This document shows positions 25,364 to 59,523 of a stretch of DNA of 64,000 nt, piece by piece. This DNA is from Albula goreensis (taxonomy: Eukaryota; Chordata; Actinopteri; Albuliformes; Albulidae), in contig CM040744.1 in NCBI GenBank assembly GCA_022829145.1, positions 3,470,001 to 3,534,000 of the forward strand, given 5' to 3'. The position numbers and the translations under genes were made by a program. The first letter of the stretch is position 1, and every line of letters begins with the position of its first letter. Under the pieces are notes generated by a model. The model was not told the origin of the DNA and searched no databases. It saw nothing but the letters and a program-made list of their open reading frames with translations.

Positions 25364-25600
25364 GGGCCTCATTTATCAATTTTTTCGTAAAACTGAGTGT
25401 AAATTTATGTATCAATGGAAACGAACTAACAAATTCCACTGGATTTATCAAACACATGTAGACACAGCATTTGTTCTTGTGTGTATGTTGATAAATACCA
25501 ATCATTCGTAAATAAGAGGCGTTCACAGAATTTTCGATTAGCATAAATTGACACCCCTGAAATACCATATTAGGAGCTTGGAATCCCTTTGTTGGCAACA
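25364..25600. mobile_element. Harbinger-like terminal fragment
   Basis: It begins GGGCCTCATTTATCAATTTT, a terminus typical of PIF/Harbinger-type elements in fish. It then runs about 235 bp of AT-rich sequence and gives way to the 34-bp array. The opposite terminus is not found, so only one end is present or the array grew inside the element. Confidence 0.45.
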
Positions 25601-28568
25601 CTGCAACACTGCCAAAAAGGAACACTGTCCAACACTACAACACTGCACTAAAAGTAACACTGTCCAACACTACAACACTGCCAAAAAGGAACACTGTCCA
25701 ACACTACAACACTGCCCAAAGGTAACACTGTCCAACACTACAACACTGCACAAAAAGTAACACTGTCCAACACTGCAACACTGCCCAAAAGTAACACTGT
25801 CCAACACTGCAACACTGCCAAAAAGGAACACTGTCCAACACTACAACACTGCACAAAAAGTAACACTGTCCAACACTGCAACACTGCCCAAAAGTAACAC
25901 TGTCCAACACTGCAACACTGCCAAAAAGTAACACTGTCCAACACTGCAACACTGCCCAAAAGTAACACTGTCCAACACTGCAACACTGCCAAAAAGTAAC
26001 ACTGTCCAACACTGCAACACTGCCCAAAAAGTAACACTGTCCAACACTGCAACACTGCCCAAAAAGTAACACTGTCCAACACTGCAACACTGCCCAAAAA
26101 GTAACACTGTCCAACACTGCAACACTGCCCAAAAAGTAACACTGTCCAACACTGCAACACTGCCAAAAAGTAACACTGTCCAACACTGCAACACTGCCAA
26201 AAAGGAACACTGTCCAACACTGCAACACTGCCCAAAAAAAAGTAACACTGTCCAACGCTGCAACACTGCCAAAAAGTAACACTGTCCAACACTGCAACAC
26301 TGCCAAAAAGGAACACTGTCCAACACTGCAACACTGCCAAAAAGTAACACTGTCCAACACTGCAACACTGCCAAAAAGGAACACTGTCCAACACTGCAAC
26401 ACTGCCCAAAAAGTAACACTGTCCAACACTGCAACACTGCCAAAAAGTAACACTGTCCAACACTGCAACAATGCCAAAAAGTAACACTGTCCAACACTGC
26501 AACACTGCCCAAAAAGGAACACTGTCCAACACTGCAACACTGCCAAAAAGTAACACTGTCCAACACTACAACACTGCCAAAAAGTAACACTGTCCAACAC
26601 TGCAACACTGCCAAAAAGTAACACTGTCCAACACTGCAACACTGCCAAAAAGTAACACTGTCCAACACTGCAACACTGCCCAAAAAGTAACACTGTCCAA
26701 CACTGCAACACTGCCAAAAAGTAACACTGTCCAACACTGCAACACTGCCCAAAAAGTAACACTGTCCAACACTGCAACACTGCCAAAAAGTAACACTGTC
26801 CAACACTGCAACAATGCCAAAAAGTAACACTGTCCAACACTGCAACACTGCCCAAAAAGGAACACTGTCCAACACTGCAACACTGCCAAAAAGTAACACT
26901 GTCCAACACTACAACACTGCCAAAAAGTAACACTGTCCAACACTGCAACACTGCCCAAAAGTATCACTGTGCAACACTGCAACACTGCCAAAAAGTAACA
27001 CTGTCCAACACTGCAACACTGCCCAAAAAGTAACACTGTCCAACACTGCAACACTGCCAAAAAGGAACACTGTCCAACACTGCAACACTGCCAAAAAGTA
27101 ACACTGTCCAACACTGCAACACTGCCCAAAAAGTAACACTGTCCAACACTGCACAAAAAGTAACACTATCCAACACTGCAACACTGCCAAAAAGTAACAC
27201 TGTCCAACACTGCAACACTGCCCAAAAAGAACACTGTCCAACACTGCAACACTGCCCAAAAAGTAACACTGTCCAACGCTGCAACACTGCCCAAAAAGGA
27301 ACACTGTCCAACACTGCAACACTGCCAAAAAGTAACACTGTCCAACACTGCAACACTGCCCAAAAGAACACTGTCCAACACTGCAACACTGCCCAAAAAG
27401 TAACACTGTCCAACACTGCAACACTGCCAAAAAGTAACACTGTCCAACACTGCAACACTGCCAAAAAGTAACACTGTCCAACACTGCAACACTGCCAAAA
27501 AGGAACACTGTCCAACACTGCAACACTGCCAAAAAGGAACACTGTCCAACACTGCAACACTGCCAAAAAGTAACACTGTCCAACACTGCTCCAATCATTC
27601 GTAAATGAGAGGCGTTCACAGAATTTTCGATTAGCATAAATTGACACCCCTGAAATACCATATTAGGAACTTGGAATCCCTTTGTTGGCAACACTGCAAC
27701 ACTGCCCAAAAGTAACACTATCCAACACTACAACACTGCCCAAAAGTAACACTGTCCAACACTACAACACTGCACAAAAAGTAACACTGTCCAACACTGC
27801 AACACTGCCCAAAAGTAACACTGTCCAACACTGCAACACTGCCCAAAAGTAACACTTTCCAACACTGCAACACTGCCCAAAAAGGAATACTGTCCAACAC
27901 TGCAACACTGCCAAAAAGTAACACTGTCCAACACTGCACAAAGAGTAACACTATCCAACACTGCAACACTGCCAAAAAGTATCACTGTCCAACACTGCAC
28001 AAAGAGTAACACTATCCAACACTGCAACACTGCCAAAAAGTATCACTGTCCAACACTGCAACACTGCCCAAAAGAACACTGTCCAACACTGCAACACTGC
28101 CCAAAAAGTAACACTGTCCAACACTGCAACACTGCCAAAAAGGAACATTGTCCAACACTGCAACACTGCCAAAAAGGAACACTGTCCAACACTGCAACAC
28201 TGCCCAAAAGTAACACTGTCCAACACTGCAACACTGCCAAAAAGGAACACTGTCCAACACTGCAACACTGCCAAAAAGTAACACTATCCAACACTGCAAC
28301 ACTGCCCAAAAAGGAACACTGTCCAACACTGCAACACTGCCCAAAAAGTAACACTGTCCAACACTGCAACACTGCCAAAAAGTAACACTGTCCAACACTG
28401 CAACACTGCCAAAAAGTAACACTGTCCAACACTGCAACACTGCCCAAAAAGTAACACTGTCCAACACTGCAACACTGCCAAAAAGTAACACTGTCCAACA
28501 CTGCAACACTGCCAAAAAGTAACACTGTCCAACACTGCAACAATGCCAAAAAGTAACGCTGTCCAACT
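25601..28568. repeat. 3-kb minisatellite, 34-bp unit (AACACTGTCCAACACTGCAA)
   Basis: There are about 85 copies of AACACTGTCCAACACTGCAA followed by CACTGCCAAAAAGT. Units are 33-35 bp depending on C and A run length. It is in two blocks, 25601-27590 and 27704-28568, separated by a 113-bp copy of the left flank. The minus strand lacks stop codons in all three frames for hundreds of codons, because the unit contains none. Confidence 0.97.
27591..27703. repeat. Internal copy of the array's left flank
   Basis: It matches 25498-25610 with about two differences (AATAAGAG/AATGAGAG, GGAGCTTGG/GGAACTTGG). The flank plus the first part of the array was therefore duplicated as a block. Confidence 0.93.
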
Positions 28569-32720: not shown

Positions 32721-32888
32721 ATTTCTCTTTTCTCATCCCCTCGGCTCTTGCCGTTGCCACGATCGGGCGGGACTGGAGGAGCAGCAGAATCCCATCCCGG
32801 ACTGAGCGTGCTCAGGAGAGATCCTGCCTAGCTCTCCAATCAATCGGTCACGCCCCCAGGGGAATAACGCCTCCGCTCACATCATTTC

Positions 32889-33135
32889 ACAGCTGATATG
32901 TGCTTTACCTGCGCCGTCCGCTAACTGGGCCGACACAGCTGATATGTGCTTTACCTGCGCCGTCCGCTAACTGGGCCGACACAGCTGATATGTGCTTTAC
33001 CTGCGCCGTCCGCTAACTGGGCCGACACAGCTGATATGTGCTTTACCTGCGCCGTCCGCTAACTGGGCCGACAAAGCTGATATGTGCTTTACCTGCGCCG
33101 TCCACTAACTGGGCCGACACAGCTGATATGTGCTT
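32889..33135. repeat. 46-bp minisatellite (ACAGCTGATATGTGCTTTAC)
   Basis: There are five nearly identical 46-bp copies plus a partial sixth. Each contains an E-box CAGCTG and CTGCGCCGTCCGCTAACTGG. Very low divergence implies recent growth. Confidence 0.96.
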
Positions 33136-54168: not shown

Positions 54169-54271
54169 TTACTGGTGCTCCTTCAGGAACTTGGTCATGT
54201 AGTCGGCCAGAGCTTGCGTTTCCTCCACTGTCACGGCATTGTACAGGGATACCCGAATTCCTCCTACCGAC
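54169..54271 (-). CDS. PSAT1: PSAT1 coding exon 9 (terminal)
   Basis: This exon is 103 nt and encodes [20 protein letters not shown] and then [13 protein letters not shown] before TAA at 54171-54169. The acceptor is CCTGCAG|. It completes the conserved substrate-binding loop HRSVGGIR split across the exon 8/9 border. Confidence 0.94.
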
Positions 54272-56877
54272 CTGCAGGGGGCAGAATCACATCAGCATTG
54301 CCATTATTGCAGTTTTAACATACCTTCAGGTGTATTACTGTACCTCACTTACTATACTGTACAGGGGTGTCCCTGTTAGTGAGCTATTAAAGAGTGCTAC
54401 TGTACCTGGCCCTTACAGGTGTGCTACTGTACCTGAGCCCTTACAGGTGTGCTACTGTACCTGTGCCCTTACAGGTGTGCTACTGTACCTGTGACCCTTA
54501 CAGGTGTGCTACTGTACCTGAGCCCTTCCAGGTGTGCTACTGTACCTGGGCCCTTACAGGTGTGCTACTGTACCTGGCCCTTACAGGTGCTACTGTACCT
54601 GTGCCCTTTCAGAGAGATCATGCCAAGTTTGGAAGCCCCGTCCAGGAATTTCTTCTCAGGGCTTCGTCTCCATCTTTCTTTCCGATCCGGAAAGGCACAT
54701 TCATCCTGCTCCGGCATGTCTGATCCACCGGACACCTGGGGGGGGGTCATTACATCACACACGTGCACGCCCACTCACATGCACACACTTGTGCACGCAC
54801 ACACACTACTAGTGCTTCAGCATGCAACAACACACACACTAGTGCTTCACATAACACACACACACACACACACACACCCATAACACTGAACACTGCAGCC
54901 AGGAATTAGTTTCCCAAATATATAACATAAGAAATTGCTTTTATTACTCTCTTACAAAGCTAGGGTTCCAATAACAATTGTTGTCAAAAATCGGTGCACA
55001 CAGCATGTTATGACATAACTCTACTCACACATAGAAACCATTGGATTGGTTGATGAGGTCATAGATCATTCCGGATTTCTCCTTGCTGAGTTTCTCCATG
55101 GCCGCCGTGCCCCCACACCTCTGAATCCAGTCCAGCACCAGACCCAAAATATAGATACTGTGAACAATGGAGAGAGAGTCACACAAACGGCATCACTTTA
55201 TACCCTCTGTGTCCTCTCTGTAACCCCTCCCAACTGAGATCAAAACCCCACCCCTTCCACAGGCTCCACCCTTCACTGCATGCAGCCAGCAGGTGGAGGT
55301 GAAGAATAACTGAAGCAGTGTGGGGTATTGTACAGGTGTGTGCAGGTGTGCTGTACCTGAAGCAGTGTGGGGTATTGTACAGGTGTGTGCAGGTGTGCTG
55401 TACCTGAGGCAGTGTGGGGTGTTGTACAGGTGTGTGCAGGTGTGCTGTACCTGAGGCAGTGTGGGGTATTGTACAGGTGTGTGCAGGTGTGCTGTACCTG
55501 AGGCAGTGTGGGGTGTTGTACAGGTGTGGTGTACCTGAGGCAGTGTGGGGTATTGTACAGGTGTGTGCAGGTGTGCTGTACCTGAGGCAGTGTGGGGTGT
55601 TGTACAGGTGTGTGCAGGTGTGCTGTACCTGAAGCAGGGTGGGGTGTTGTACAGGGAGTTGTTCCCAGCCTGCACCTGGTAGTCGAGGACAACGGGGCAT
55701 TCATTCAGTGTCTTCCCCAGCAGGTCCTCCCGCACGATGACCACAGTCACCCCCGCACAGCCAACGTTCTTCTGTGCCCCAGCGAAGATCAGCCCGAACT
55801 GCAGCCACACAGCACCGCGACCGTTATACACGCGCTCACACTCACATTCAGCAGAGTAACAGCTGCAAGGCTACAGCAGACATCACGGCTGTAGGAGGGG
55901 CCAGAGTTCACCTCAGCCGACCCAAAGCCTGTCTCTGCAGTGCTGCGGTCATCTTCACTGGGCTATGGGCTAAACAACCCCCAACTCACTGGGCTAAACA
56001 ACCATGTGCAGAGGTCAGATCTCAGGGTTGCAGTGTTCTCTGGGTTTTAGTGTTCCAGCACTATCTTGGTTCCTTTAAATCATTGATTGGCTAATGTGTT
56101 CATGCACTTTGATTTTGCGTGAACACATTAGGGGGTCCCTGGAACAGTGTGGGGAACACCAGGTGTACAGTACCCGAAACTTGCAGGTGAGGCGACGGCC
56201 CGCTCACCTTTGACACATCGACGGGGCGTGACAGGAAGTTGGAGGACATGTCACTGACGAGGACGACGCCCTTGGTTTCAGGCACGAAGTTGAACTCCAC
56301 GCCGTGGACCGTCTCATTGCAGCAGTAGTACACGTAGGAGGCCGAGGGGTTCAGGGACCAGCTACTGGGGTCAGGAACCTCTGCAGGGAGAGCACAACAC
56401 GACCATGGGGTTACGCTCTCATACCCCACACGACCATGGGGTTACGCTCTCATACCCAACACGACCACAGGGTTACACTCTCATACCCAACACGACCACG
56501 GGATTACACTCTCATACCCAACACGACCACAGGGTTACGCTCTCATACCCAACACGACCACGGGATTACGCTCTCATACCCAACACGACCACGGGATTAC
56601 GCTCTCATACCCAACACGACCACGGGATTACGCTCTCATACCCAACACGACCACAGGGTTACGCTCTCATACCCAACACGACCACAGGGTTACGCTCTCA
56701 TACCCAACACGACCACAGGGTTACGCTCTCATACCCAACACGACCACGGGATTACGCTCTCATACCCAACACGACCACAGGGTTACGCTCTCATACCCAA
56801 CACAACCACGGGATTACGCTCTCATACCCACCATTAAATTCTCATAACCATATGGCTAAACCAACATAACTGCAGGG

Positions 56878-56961
<84 letters not shown>

Positions 56962-59523
56962 ACAGACACACAGACACACAGACACACACAAAGACACAGA
57001 CACAGACACAAAGACACAGACACAGACACAGACACAGACACTCTTACTTACTGGTGTAGCTGTCCAGTTTGGGGTGCACGATGTTCACCTTGCCGTATTT
57101 CTCCGCCTCTTTAGCAGCTTTGGAGGACCAGGTGCCTGTGACCAGGTAATCTGCACACCTGTCCTCTTTCAGGCCAATCAGGTTGAGGGGGACGGCACTG
57201 AACTGACCGGTCCCGCCCCCCTGCAGAAACATCACCTTGTAGTTGTCAGGAATCCCTCTGTTCGAGGGGAGAAAGGACACCATGCTTATTCATTACCTAT
57301 AACAACGGAGCGAGGGATAGAGGAGAGGGGGAGCGAGAGATGGGGGGAGGGGGCTGGAGTCCCACCTGTATCACTCACAGAAATCACACGCATATAAAAG
57401 AAAAAAAGGACTTTATTCATCATGCAATAAGACAGAATGGATCAGAACTAAGACAGGATCACTGCCCACAGAACTGATGATGTGCTGGTTTGGCTTTAAG
57501 TTAAACCAGCCTCTGTCAGCCACTCACTGAACTGAATGCAAGGCCCACATGCTGACATCATCAGAAAGAGACAGCCTCTGCACGAGTGACTACATGGAAC
57601 GCGTACACAAACACACACACACTTCTAATCCTCTGTGATTTATTGTTTGGGAAAGGTAACACAGTGACCACAACACATTACCATCCACATTCCACTTCCC
57701 AATCAGTTCATCAGAAGAAATCGTAACATCCAATCAGAGAGGGGCATTCATACTACTCCCATTCCATCATCCAATCAGATCAGAGCGGATGGTTATCCGA
57801 TCATAGAGGATGGTGCTTACAGGAGTTCCCGGAGCAGGCTCTCAGCAGCTTTCAGGATCTTGGTGAAATCGGAGGAGCGGTGACTCATCTCTGCAGAAGG
57901 AGGGAGGAGTTTATGTCACCACAGAAACCTCAACAACTTCAGAGACCTGCTTTTATGCTCTACTATGCAGAGAGTTCAGCTACTTATAAAAGTTTGAGGA
58001 AAACTTCAGTGAGGGAACTTTAAAAGAGAGGCCATGAGAGTAAATACTGTCATCAACAGCCAGTGCATGTTTCAGAGAGAGAGAGGAGAGGGAGGACAAG
58101 TGGAGAGGAGAGGAAGGATGAGAGGAGAAGAAAGGAAGGATGAGAGGAGGAGAGGAAGGGCGAGAGGAGAGGGAGGACAAGACGAGAGGTGAGAAGAGGG
58201 AGGAAAAGAGAGGACAAGAGGAGATAGCTGCAGAGTTGTCTCACCCAGAACGCTAATCCCGATCCCATTATAATCCAGAAGTTCTTTCTGAGCCGCCAAA
58301 AGTACCTGCCAGTCAAGAGAGAGAACAGGCAAGCCACACAAAATATTAGCACCACACAGGTGTGCTTCCATTCACAAAACAATAGCACAGCACAGGTGCA
58401 CTGCAACTCCCAAACCGTTTTTTTAGCTTTGTCTACGGTGGGTTTTTAAGTTGTTGCTGTCTTTCATTATTGCATCATCCACCTTCACATGCATGAACTA
58501 CAGGAGAAAGGACGCAGACCCTGCATCTGCTGGTCTCTCACAAAACACTGCTTAAATAGGGGATACAACGATATGTAATCAAATTCTTTACATAACTTTA
58601 TTAGGATTAAAAACTATACTTAATCATAGTGTATCATTATACAATCATCATTCTTTAAAATAATATTTTGAAAAGTACTTAACTTGTAATTAGACCTTTG
58701 TTAAGATGGACACAATCATGAGTTACCAAAACACTGAAAAGGGGAACGGATACACATCTGCATAATCATTACCACTGTATTTAGAAAATTATTTTATCCA
58801 GTGCGTGTGTCGTGCGTGCATTTTGAATATTTACAATACTATTTGTCAAAGAATTTAAATTGCAGTTCAGAAATGCAAAATGAAAGCAAAAGGCGTCCAC
58901 GTTATGGTCATGTTGACGCCCTGTTTGCATAAGCATTACAAAACTTCTACTAGAAATACAAGTTAAACATTTCGGAGAGGCTCAGTTTCGTGGCTGCACC
59001 CCCTAGAGGCCACAGCGACTCCGCGAAGCGTGAATTGTCTCCCTTTTTCTACAAATGACCGGCTGACGCAATTCCCACGATCAGCCTCGGATGACTGAAG
59101 CGCGAACTAGCCAGACATTCCCGACCATTGTGTTTCCAAGGCTGATAACCTCGGCTGTTACGTAAAATGCTTTGGTTCAATTACTTTTGTTTTTGTTAAC
59201 ACAATTTCACGTGCAACGTCGAATGCACGACCGCATGCAATATTTTTGAATGGATAAAAACTAGCTCATTAGACAAAAACATCTATGGAAAGTTTGCAGG
59301 AGTCATTCAGAAACAGCTCGTGAAACACCTCCTGGCACTGGATGCAACGCTGACGACTTAAACTAGCAAACTGCTCATCAAGGCTCTTCGCTGAATGTAC
59401 ATCGTTTCATTCTACATGCAGGCAACAAACTGATGACATCTTGCGAATAAAACCGAGAGAACTTACAGGCTGAGGAAGTTTTGCCGGTCCTGCACCAAAG
59501 TTCATCGTGCGTTTGTTGTCCAT
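54169..59523 (-). CDS. PSAT1: PSAT1, phosphoserine aminotransferase (whole coding span, nine exons, frameshift in exon 8)
   Basis: This is a class V PLP-dependent aminotransferase. It converts 3-phosphohydroxypyruvate plus glutamate to 3-phosphoserine plus 2-oxoglutarate, the second step of serine synthesis, in the cytosol. Nine exons read on the minus strand match the vertebrate PSAT1 protein from end to end: [11 protein letters not shown] at the N-terminus, [29 protein letters not shown] (cofactor phosphate loop), [29 protein letters not shown], the Schiff-base lysine in GAQKNVG (about residue 199), and [15 protein letters not shown] near the C-terminus. The coding length is 1106 nt; 1107 would give 368 residues, close to the 370 of human. 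The missing base is in exon 8 (see that entry). The ATG at 59521-59523 is in good context (A at -3, G at +4) and directly precedes the family N-terminus. CEP78 lies about 1 kb upstream in the same orientation, as in human. The gene identity is certain. Whether this allele is functional is not. Confidence 0.96.
54393..54604 (-). repeat. 28-bp minisatellite in PSAT1 intron 8, seeded from the exon 8 donor
   Basis: There are about 7.5 tandem copies with a 28-bp period, measured between identical landmarks at 54419 and 54447. In the gene's sense each unit contains GGGCACAG|GTACAGTAGC or a close variant. This is the last bases of exon 8 (AAAGGGCACAG) joined to its splice donor. The array begins at the donor itself, so the true donor is the first unit of the array. 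Confidence 0.9.
54599..54735 (-). CDS. PSAT1: PSAT1 coding exon 8, one base short (frameshift)
   Basis: This exon is 137 nt, with acceptor CCCCCAG| and donor CACAG|GTACAG. Its first part reads [20 protein letters not shown] and on to GDEAL. Its second part, [19 protein letters not shown], is only found in the +1 frame. The entry phase from exon 7 and the exit phase into exon 9 demand 138 nt, and human exon 8 also codes 45 whole codons plus three split bases. The switch lies between CTG and AGAAG at 54656/54657, as if one G of CTGGAG were lost. Read literally, translation continues for 12 foreign residues and stops at a TGA about 19 nt before the exon end. That is too close to the last junction for classical nonsense-mediated decay. 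Residues lost would include the HRSVGGIR substrate loop. Confidence 0.92.
54765..54880. repeat. CA-rich repeat in PSAT1 intron 7
   Basis: This is a degenerate CA tract with a duplicated CACACACTAGTGCTTCA motif, ending in a pure (CA)n of about 11 units. Confidence 0.85.
55029..55157 (-). CDS. PSAT1: PSAT1 coding exon 7
   Basis: This exon is 129 nt and encodes [20 protein letters not shown], then [20 protein letters not shown] and FY, with split codons at both ends. The acceptor is TTCACAG| and the donor GT|GTGAGT. This is the helical stretch following the active-site domain. Confidence 0.94.
55318..55650 (-). repeat. 47-bp minisatellite in PSAT1 intron 6, seeded from the exon 6 donor
   Basis: There are about seven tandem copies with a 47-bp period (landmarks at 55331 and 55378), one copy shortened. 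In the sense direction each unit carries a near copy of the last 25 bases of exon 6 (encoding YNTPPCF) followed by the donor CAG|GTACAGC. The copy nearest the exon is the exon end itself. Confidence 0.92.
55629..55798 (-). CDS. PSAT1: PSAT1 coding exon 6 (catalytic lysine)
   Basis: This exon is 170 nt, starts [16 protein letters not shown] and ends SLYNTPPCF plus two bases. The lysine of GAQKNVG forms the internal aldimine with PLP. Human has serine where this protein has cysteine in NVGCAG. The acceptor is GCTGCAG| and the donor AG|GTACAG. Reading past the donor stays open into the adjacent minisatellite down to about 55193, so intron retention would not terminate at once. Confidence 0.95.
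55799..56207 (-). other. PSAT1: PSAT1 intron 5
   Basis: This 409-bp intron includes a short palindromic-looking stretch at about 56095-56130, where AATGTGTTCATGCA is followed by TGCGTGAACACATT. The two arms form a hairpin. It is otherwise unremarkable. Confidence 0.75.
56208..56380 (-). CDS. PSAT1: PSAT1 coding exon 5
   Basis: This exon is 173 nt and encodes [19 protein letters not shown] through [12 protein letters not shown]. It includes NETVHGVEF and the SDMSSNF motif with the Asp that pairs with the PLP ring nitrogen. The acceptor is CCTGCAG| and the donor AAG|GTGAGC, ending in phase 0. A 31-bp minisatellite starts about 15-20 bases upstream of the acceptor. Confidence 0.95.
56395..56838. 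repeat. 31-bp minisatellite in PSAT1 intron 4
   Basis: There are about 14 copies of a 31-bp unit containing GGTTACGCTCTCATACCCAA on the plus strand. Copies differ mainly at CACGGGATT versus CACAGGGTT, alternating along the array. It ends about 15-20 bp before the exon 5 acceptor, so branch-point choice must fall in or beside the array. Confidence 0.93.
56877..57041. repeat. Compound (CT)n(CA)n/(GACACA)n microsatellite in PSAT1 intron 4
   Basis: CT repeats run into a long CA tract and then CAGACACA-type variants, reaching almost to the exon 4 donor. In the transcript this is a (UG)n tract starting about ten bases after the 5' splice site. Confidence 0.95.
57052..57257 (-). CDS. PSAT1: PSAT1 coding exon 4
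   Basis: This exon is 206 nt and encodes [15 protein letters not shown] through [12 protein letters not shown]. It contains the PLP-phosphate loop [11 protein letters not shown] and the [14 protein letters not shown] motif. The acceptor is GAACAG| and the donor A|GTAAGT. A long (GT)n tract starts about ten bases after the donor. Confidence 0.95.
57258..57820 (-). other. PSAT1: PSAT1 intron 3
   Basis: This 563-bp intron contains a short GA-rich patch at 57300-57350 and otherwise unique sequence. A TTTATT (AATAAA on the sense strand) at about 57412 is a potential premature poly(A) signal, with no support for use. Confidence 0.8.
57821..57890 (-). CDS. PSAT1: PSAT1 coding exon 3
   Basis: This exon is 70 nt and encodes [20 protein letters not shown] with two flanking split codons. 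The acceptor is CTGCAG| and the donor is |GTAAGC. SHRS is the highly conserved substrate-side motif of phosphoserine aminotransferases. Confidence 0.94.
58072..58215. repeat. GA-rich (polypurine) repeat in PSAT1 intron 2
   Basis: This is a degenerate GAGAGGA/GGACAAGAG tract. In the transcript it is a long polypyrimidine stretch, so it could act as a decoy acceptor tract upstream of exon 3. Confidence 0.85.
58245..58305 (-). CDS. PSAT1: PSAT1 coding exon 2
   Basis: This exon is 61 nt and encodes [20 protein letters not shown] plus one base of the next codon. The acceptor is GGCAG| and the donor is |GTGAGA. It joins exon 1 in phase 0 and exon 3 in phase 1, giving the family block LPQPVLL and then SVLEMSHRS. 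Confidence 0.94.
58306..59466 (-). other. PSAT1: PSAT1 intron 1
   Basis: This 1161-bp intron is unique sequence, AT-rich in the middle, without tandem repeats, unlike introns 2, 4, 6 and 8. CpG-containing sequence near 59000-59240 could be promoter-proximal. I see no ORF of note. Confidence 0.8.
59467..59523 (-). CDS. PSAT1: PSAT1 coding exon 1
   Basis: This exon is 57 nt and encodes 19 residues beginning [17 protein letters not shown]. It is followed by a GTAAGT donor at 59466-59461 and ends in phase 0. The short N-terminal extension before [10 protein letters not shown] is the usual length for animal PSAT1. No in-frame ATG is needed further upstream. Confidence 0.93.

Follow-up and report, generated by a model that had tools for sequence, protein, structure and literature searches.

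How does a row of near-identical splice donors come to stand directly behind a conserved exon, and what does it do to the message? The question arose from a preliminary description of the DNA analyzed here, a stretch of 64,000 nucleotides from Albula goreensis (hereafter the window; C4:3470001-3534000 of an assembly of 931.9 Mb in 208 contigs), in which an intronic minisatellite was noted that seemed to be built from an exon end together with its own donor. This donor-spanning minisatellite of intron 6 proved to be real and not a product of chance. The reading that we favor, with a probability of about 75%, is that of a "mirage" minisatellite, i.e., a neutral tandem duplication across a donor that later expanded, with its first copy still serving.

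The PSAT1 gene in the window

The gene lies on the minus strand at about 54-58 kb of the window. Its exon 6 (56 aa) matched human PSAT1 chains over the full length, through NTPPCF, in a PDB sequence search (E about 1e-25), and exons 4, 5 and 6 each scored above the cut-off of the Pfam family Aminotran_5. Judged by these similarities, the exons encode phosphoserine aminotransferase, and the gene is PSAT1. Exons other than 4, 5 and 6 were read by eye (Table 1). A one-base frameshift at 54650-54660 (minus strand), where the frame switches between ...KKDGDEAL and EKKFLDG..., interrupts exon 8; it reflects an error of the assembly or a genuine defect. CEP78-like coding stretches, recognized by eye, adjoin PSAT1 at 60.5-63.8 kb (minus strand); the two genes are neighbors in human as well. 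A codon-bias scan of the window gave 80 segments, among which PSAT1 and this CEP78-like neighbor were the only ones recognized by eye. Elsewhere in the window, a 3-kb array (25596-28567; 34-bp unit, 87 copies) has no recognized gene beside it, and a 46-bp array (32888-33135; 98% matches), whose units carry CAG|GTAAAG on the minus strand, adjoins no recognized exon.

Table 1. Position of PSAT1 exons and donor-spanning arrays in the window
Feature	Position	Strand	Basis
PSAT1 exon 4	57052..57257	-	borders by eye; Pfam
PSAT1 exon 5	56208..56380	-	borders by eye; Pfam
PSAT1 exon 6, 170 bp; true donor 55629/55628, CAG|GTACAG	55629..55798	-	PDB human PSAT1; Pfam Aminotran_5
47-bp donor-spanning minisatellite (intron 6): true junction, six decoy donors, last copy without GT	55310..55655	-	TRF; unit list; exon-tail identity matrix
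PSAT1 exon 7	55029..55157	-	by eye
PSAT1 exon 8; true donor 54599/54598, CAG|GTACAG; one-base frameshift inside	54599..54735	-	by eye
28-bp donor-spanning minisatellite (intron 8): 7.9 copies, seven decoy donors	54394..54612	-	TRF
PSAT1 exon 9, final coding exon	54169..54271	-	by eye

Anatomy and direction of the intron 6 array

TRF assigned to the intron 6 array a period of 47, 7.6 copies, 90% matches and a score of 566, and reported further periods of 84 and 131. The 47-bp unit consists of 26 bp of exon 6 tail and 21 bp of intron head. Read on the minus strand, exon 6 ends with ...CTGTACAACACCCCACCCTGCTTCAG at 55629, and the border is CTTCAG|GTACAGC. Decoy donors follow at 55582, 55535, 55498, 55451, 55404 and 55357, and a last exon-tail copy at 55310 reads CAG|TTATTC, without a GT. 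Successive donors are spaced by 47, 47, 37, 47, 47 and 47 bp, and the single spacing of 37 indicates that one unit lost 10 bp. CAG|GTACAG, as in the true donor, is found at five of the six decoys; the sixth reads CAG|GTACAC and is followed by the 37-bp unit. The row of near-identical donors in the preliminary description was therefore found as claimed, and so was the true border as its first unit, with a tail that encodes YNTPPCF, matched in human PSAT1. Its figure of about seven 47-bp units holds in that seven copies stand behind the exon, and fails in that one unit has only 37 bp and the last copy lacks the GT; the shared exon tail, given there as 25 bp, measures 26 bp and is matched by the copies at 23-24 positions.

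Since the exon 6 tail encodes a stretch that aligns to human PSAT1, the exon came first. This supports the earlier proposal that the array came from the exon and not the reverse, as do changes that the copies share among themselves. Each of the seven copies is identical to the exon tail at 23 or 24 of 26 positions, and any two copies are identical at 24-26 of 26, a small margin over the exon edge. One difference from the exon is common to all seven copies and a second to five of them. Moreover, a C/T variant alternates along the array, which points to growth by dimers. Together, the shared changes and the alternation suggest a homogenization that spared the exon edge, as in the globin gene BflGb6 of amphioxus, where homogenization is described inside the cluster with the edges spared (PMC3087553).

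A second array in the same gene

An array of the same kind, absent from the preliminary description, was found at exon 8. Its decoy donors lie at 54574, 54546, 54518, 54489, 54461, 54433 and 54406, and its unit repeats the exon 8 end, ...AAGGGCACAG|GTACAGTAGCACACCTGT, with about 10 bp of exon tail in the 28 bp. Units that span the exon-intron border and contain exon sequence thus occur in both arrays; in the intron 6 array, the inner units resembled one another more than they did the edge copy, by a small margin. Exons 6 and 8 share one and the same 9-mer, CAGGTACAG, as their true donor. The intron heads are also alike, with GTACAG followed by CACACCTG, and the exon parts differ. Given this likeness, the two arrays may not be independent, and their intron parts may share an origin.

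Two further arrays were noted beside PSAT1 exons. One, of 14 copies of a 31-bp unit (56395-56830), is separated from the exon 5 acceptor by 14 bp; the other, CA-rich (56901-57041), is separated from the exon 4 donor by 10 bp. With these, four PSAT1 introns or intron ends are filled with repeats. Folding of the intron 6 and intron 8 arrays was no better than that of their shuffled counterparts (z +1.83 and +1.26, respectively), so that no structured RNA is indicated, and such an element was rejected for both on this comparison.

Similar arrays at other exon ends

A DNA search with the array and its exon returned 12 other loci at 65-73% identity, all of which were read. Six of them have an array at or near an exon or exon-like frame. 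The array on C2 begins at the donor of a SIK3-like exon (PDB E 4e-18; Pkinase 3e-8), and that at 49.23 Mb of C3 begins at the end of a PDZ exon (Pfam 5e-13; MPP-like by eye), where up to about 40 copies of the donor motif stand behind the real exon. On C14, the matched array follows an exon named TBC by eye, with no match in Pfam or PDB; the next exon of the same gene has its own array and matched RabGAP-TBC at 3e-4, below the curated cut-off. Two successive introns of a TBC-like gene (L005:2-786 and 1185-1882) each contain a 48-bp donor-spanning array. In L050, L051 and L052, the array starts at, or 12 bp past, the donor of an exon-like open frame; none of these frames matched Pfam, and that of L050 matched nothing in PDB either. 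Units of the SIK3-like locus, L051 and L052 have no intact donor copy. No exon was found at the array start at five of the 12 loci (on C25, C1, C10, C9 and C18), and the array on C5 extends past the sequence examined. Because these loci were found by their likeness to a donor-bearing array, they show recurrence and not frequency. The earlier view of the structure as unusual in kind was not supported: it has been published under the name of mirages in amphioxus and recurs at other exon ends here.

The same 12 matches could be taken to mean that a dispersed minisatellite invaded the intron and merely resembles the exon. We consider this highly improbable, as the PSAT1 tail encodes conserved protein, the units differ between loci, and the TBC and PDZ copies, unlike the SIK3-like ones, carry the tail of their own exon. 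A dispersed-repeat origin was set aside because of the difference in units between genes.

A further sample of exons came from family searches and comprised 30 myosin loci, several of which overlap, together with eight stretches of 10 kb; it is too small to give a rate. A search for ion-channel families served solely for choosing stretches. TRF arrays with a period of at least 14 and a score of at least 80 were present in four of the 30 myosin loci (L015, L022, L023 and L027). Of the last three, which were read by eye, L027 contains a donor array and L023 an exon-start array, and the arrays of L022 do not begin at an exon end. In L023 (2170-2877), an array stands at the start of a myosin exon and the first bases of the exon are copied on both sides, which by eye makes it an acceptor-side counterpart. 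Two of the 10-kb stretches had no array with a period of at least 10, five others had short arrays, and the remaining one (L043) showed no exon end at the three places read.

Strength, frame and retention of the decoy donors

Donor strength was scored with a custom matrix derived from 113 donors of the genome, by which CAGGTACAG is a weak donor (4.4, with the 10th percentile at 4.6); the donors of PSAT1 exons 2, 4, 5 and 7 scored 6.3 to 9.1. The scoring of each unit, suggested earlier as a check, bore out that decoys equal the true donor: all scored 4.4, apart from one at 3.0. Past exon 6 the frame stays open to about 55196 (ORF 55196-55870), i.e., for about 144 codons, in good agreement with the 145 previously estimated; the 47-bp consensus unit contains no stop triplet in any frame, and for that reason the intron is open. 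The intron 8 unit contains TAG and TAA.

When the decoys were joined to exon 7, five of the six shifted the frame and met a stop inside exon 7, and only 55404 (+225) remained in frame. In this translation exon 7 was taken to 55030, one base short, which touches the true and +225 messages only after exon 7. The expectation that every third decoy keeps frame thus has to be replaced by a single in-frame decoy, and elongated proteins, formerly preferred to immediate stops, are not the expected outcome.

The GT is retained at all six decoys of intron 6 and all seven of intron 8, which either a recent spread or use would explain. Retention elsewhere was counted in ungapped units matching the consensus at 72% or more. 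The PDZ array retains GT in 38 of 38 units and one TBC array in 11 of 11; the other TBC array has the G in 13 and the T in 12 of 14 units, slightly less than its mean identity of 0.957. At a muscle myosin exon end (L027:2044-2714; by eye ...SFQTVSALFR), a 38-bp unit is present in 17.7 copies with GG changed to GA, leaving decoys without GT: GAT stands in 16 of 17 units where the true border reads GGT. Across these few arrays (PDZ, two TBC and L027) a consistent sign of selection for or against decoys was not seen.

Such counts bear on the view that the array is functional, either through dual-specific or recursive AG|GT sites or as tandem donors that tune PSAT1 output by way of frame-shifted messages. 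CAG|GT at every intron 6 decoy and the premature stops in exon 7 would suit it, and dual-specific AGGT sites, with an excess of introns spliced there in tandem-repeat genes, are on record (PMC10809524). The second PSAT1 array nevertheless differs in unit and length, and the GAT copies of the myosin array imply that such an array needs no working decoys. A functional role is accordingly rated as quite improbable.

Donor octamers and distance from contig ends

A further alternative holds that the splice donor itself promotes the birth of arrays, as a preferred seed of duplication through, for example, transcription-linked breaks, R-loops or exon-end repair. In the genome, the donor octamer CAGGTAAG occurring three times with gaps of 12-40 gave 708 matches vs. 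211 for the reversed octamer, and single occurrences numbered 34,503 vs. 24,337. Merged into distinct arrays on C1-C4, the matches listed contained 22 arrays of CAGGTAAG (possibly missing those in the last 0.3 Mb of C4) vs. three of the reversed octamer, an excess of about 5.2-fold per occurrence (p 0.0016). Arrays at two of the seven located PSAT1 donors point in the same direction. However, octamers of the same base make-up vary widely: in a second pair, GGACTAGA gave 35 triple matches (two arrays on C1-C4) and its reverse AGATCAGG 467, unscaled by single occurrences. This spread is why we do not call the CAGGTAAG excess proven. CAGGTACA represents a second donor type; the donor-type counts cover CAGGTAAG alone.

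Upstream sequence was read for all 22 listed arrays, and seven of them begin where a coding exon ends: SATB1 (PDB E 9e-34), KCTD1 (PDB E 8e-29), a contactin-5-like gene (PDB E 2e-26), an MTERF3-like gene (PDB 3e-18, as mTERF domain-containing protein 1), a C2H2 zinc finger gene (Pfam 4e-6), a TTC38-like gene (by eye alone, with no Pfam match) and, also by eye, L096, in which the array follows an open frame behind an acceptor-like site. A recognizable coding exon was absent from the other 15. As a control, 20 isolated CAGGTAAG sites from C1:55 kb-1.63 Mb were inspected, three of which are coding exon ends: two DENN (4.5e-14 and 6.8e-12) and one of a proteasome alpha gene (0.014, and by eye). 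These proportions of coding exon ends, 7/22 vs. 3/20, did not differ significantly (Fisher p 0.28), and the arrays were searched harder, with about 900 bp upstream and four PDB searches, than the controls, with 330 bp and no PDB search. Exon calls were made by eye and not blind in both groups. Frames from 16 arrays and 10 control sites were run against Pfam. Of the remaining arrays, four lacked a 20-aa frame, and L096 and L097 were left out; of the remaining control sites, eight lacked such a frame, and two were excluded because they were simple repeats. On balance, seeding by the donor appears unlikely, if less so than the other alternatives.

Position sets the listed arrays apart: 19 of the 22 are no more than 5 Mb away from a contig end, a zone that makes up 18% of the C1-C4 sequence (p about 8e-12 against an even spread; contig ends were taken for chromosome ends). 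None of the three reversed-octamer arrays does so. Meiotic breaks of zebrafish are reported to form near subtelomeric regions (PMC8531508), and breaks so placed would suit an expansion of arrays driven by recombination.

Discussion

As we infer it for the mirage reading, a tandem duplication over the exon 6/intron 6 border would have copied the 26 bp of tail with the 21 bp of intron head. Such an event should be costless while the first donor is used, because the whole exon is kept and later copies are intronic. The copies would then have multiplied, partly as dimers, and been homogenized by slippage or unequal exchange. Most likely, the first donor stays in use and splicing at the decoys is absent or infrequent; where a decoy is misused, the message would mostly be truncated and probably degraded. 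Neutrality in its simplest form does not require that a single gene carry two arrays, or that CAGGTAAG arrays exceed those of the reversed octamer.

Arrays of this kind are experiments made by nature, in conserved vertebrate genes, on how a donor is chosen and how introns grow or are gained. A bolder and rather doubtful extension is that donors act as mutagenic seeds in this genome and that arrays arise at an elevated rate from exon ends close to those of chromosomes, with intact decoys in perhaps hundreds of genes. If so, the splicing machinery would have to ignore rows of decoys in all of these genes, which would amount to a natural test, across the genome, of how splicing picks the first among identical donors. 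In a limited look at the literature, outside subscription journals and preprints, no survey of such arrays across a fish genome was found.

Intron gain by duplication of an AGGT proto-splice site was reportedly proposed by Rogers (1989), Zhuo (2007) and Gao and Lynch (2009). The idea is summarized in PMC3087553. As it supposes, the segment duplicated here holds AG|GT; unlike it, no new intron was seen. In human genes of segmental duplications, minisatellites with units of about 30 bp at exon-intron borders are reported to be able to alter splicing (PMC2812944). The PSAT1 arrays resemble these internal tandem repeats in being minisatellites at an exon-intron border, whereas the human ones belong to recently duplicated genes and are linked to novel introns, and here an ordinary PSAT1 intron was lengthened.

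The closest parallel is found in amphioxus. Mirages have been described there in Adh3, TnC and the globins BflGb6 and BflGb9, with PGBD5 being similar, and regular splicing reportedly proceeds undisturbed by them (PMC3087553, PMC3902484). They share with the PSAT1 arrays the tandem copies that span a border, the many AG/GT signals and a homogenization of the inner units without the edges. The amphioxus cases come from a cephalochordate and were studied one gene at a time, by RT-PCR and for variation in length; those described here come from a fish, are found at two places within a single gene and also at other exon ends, and are known from the sequence of one assembly. By their sequence, the PSAT1 arrays are a further member of the mirage kind, now in a fish.
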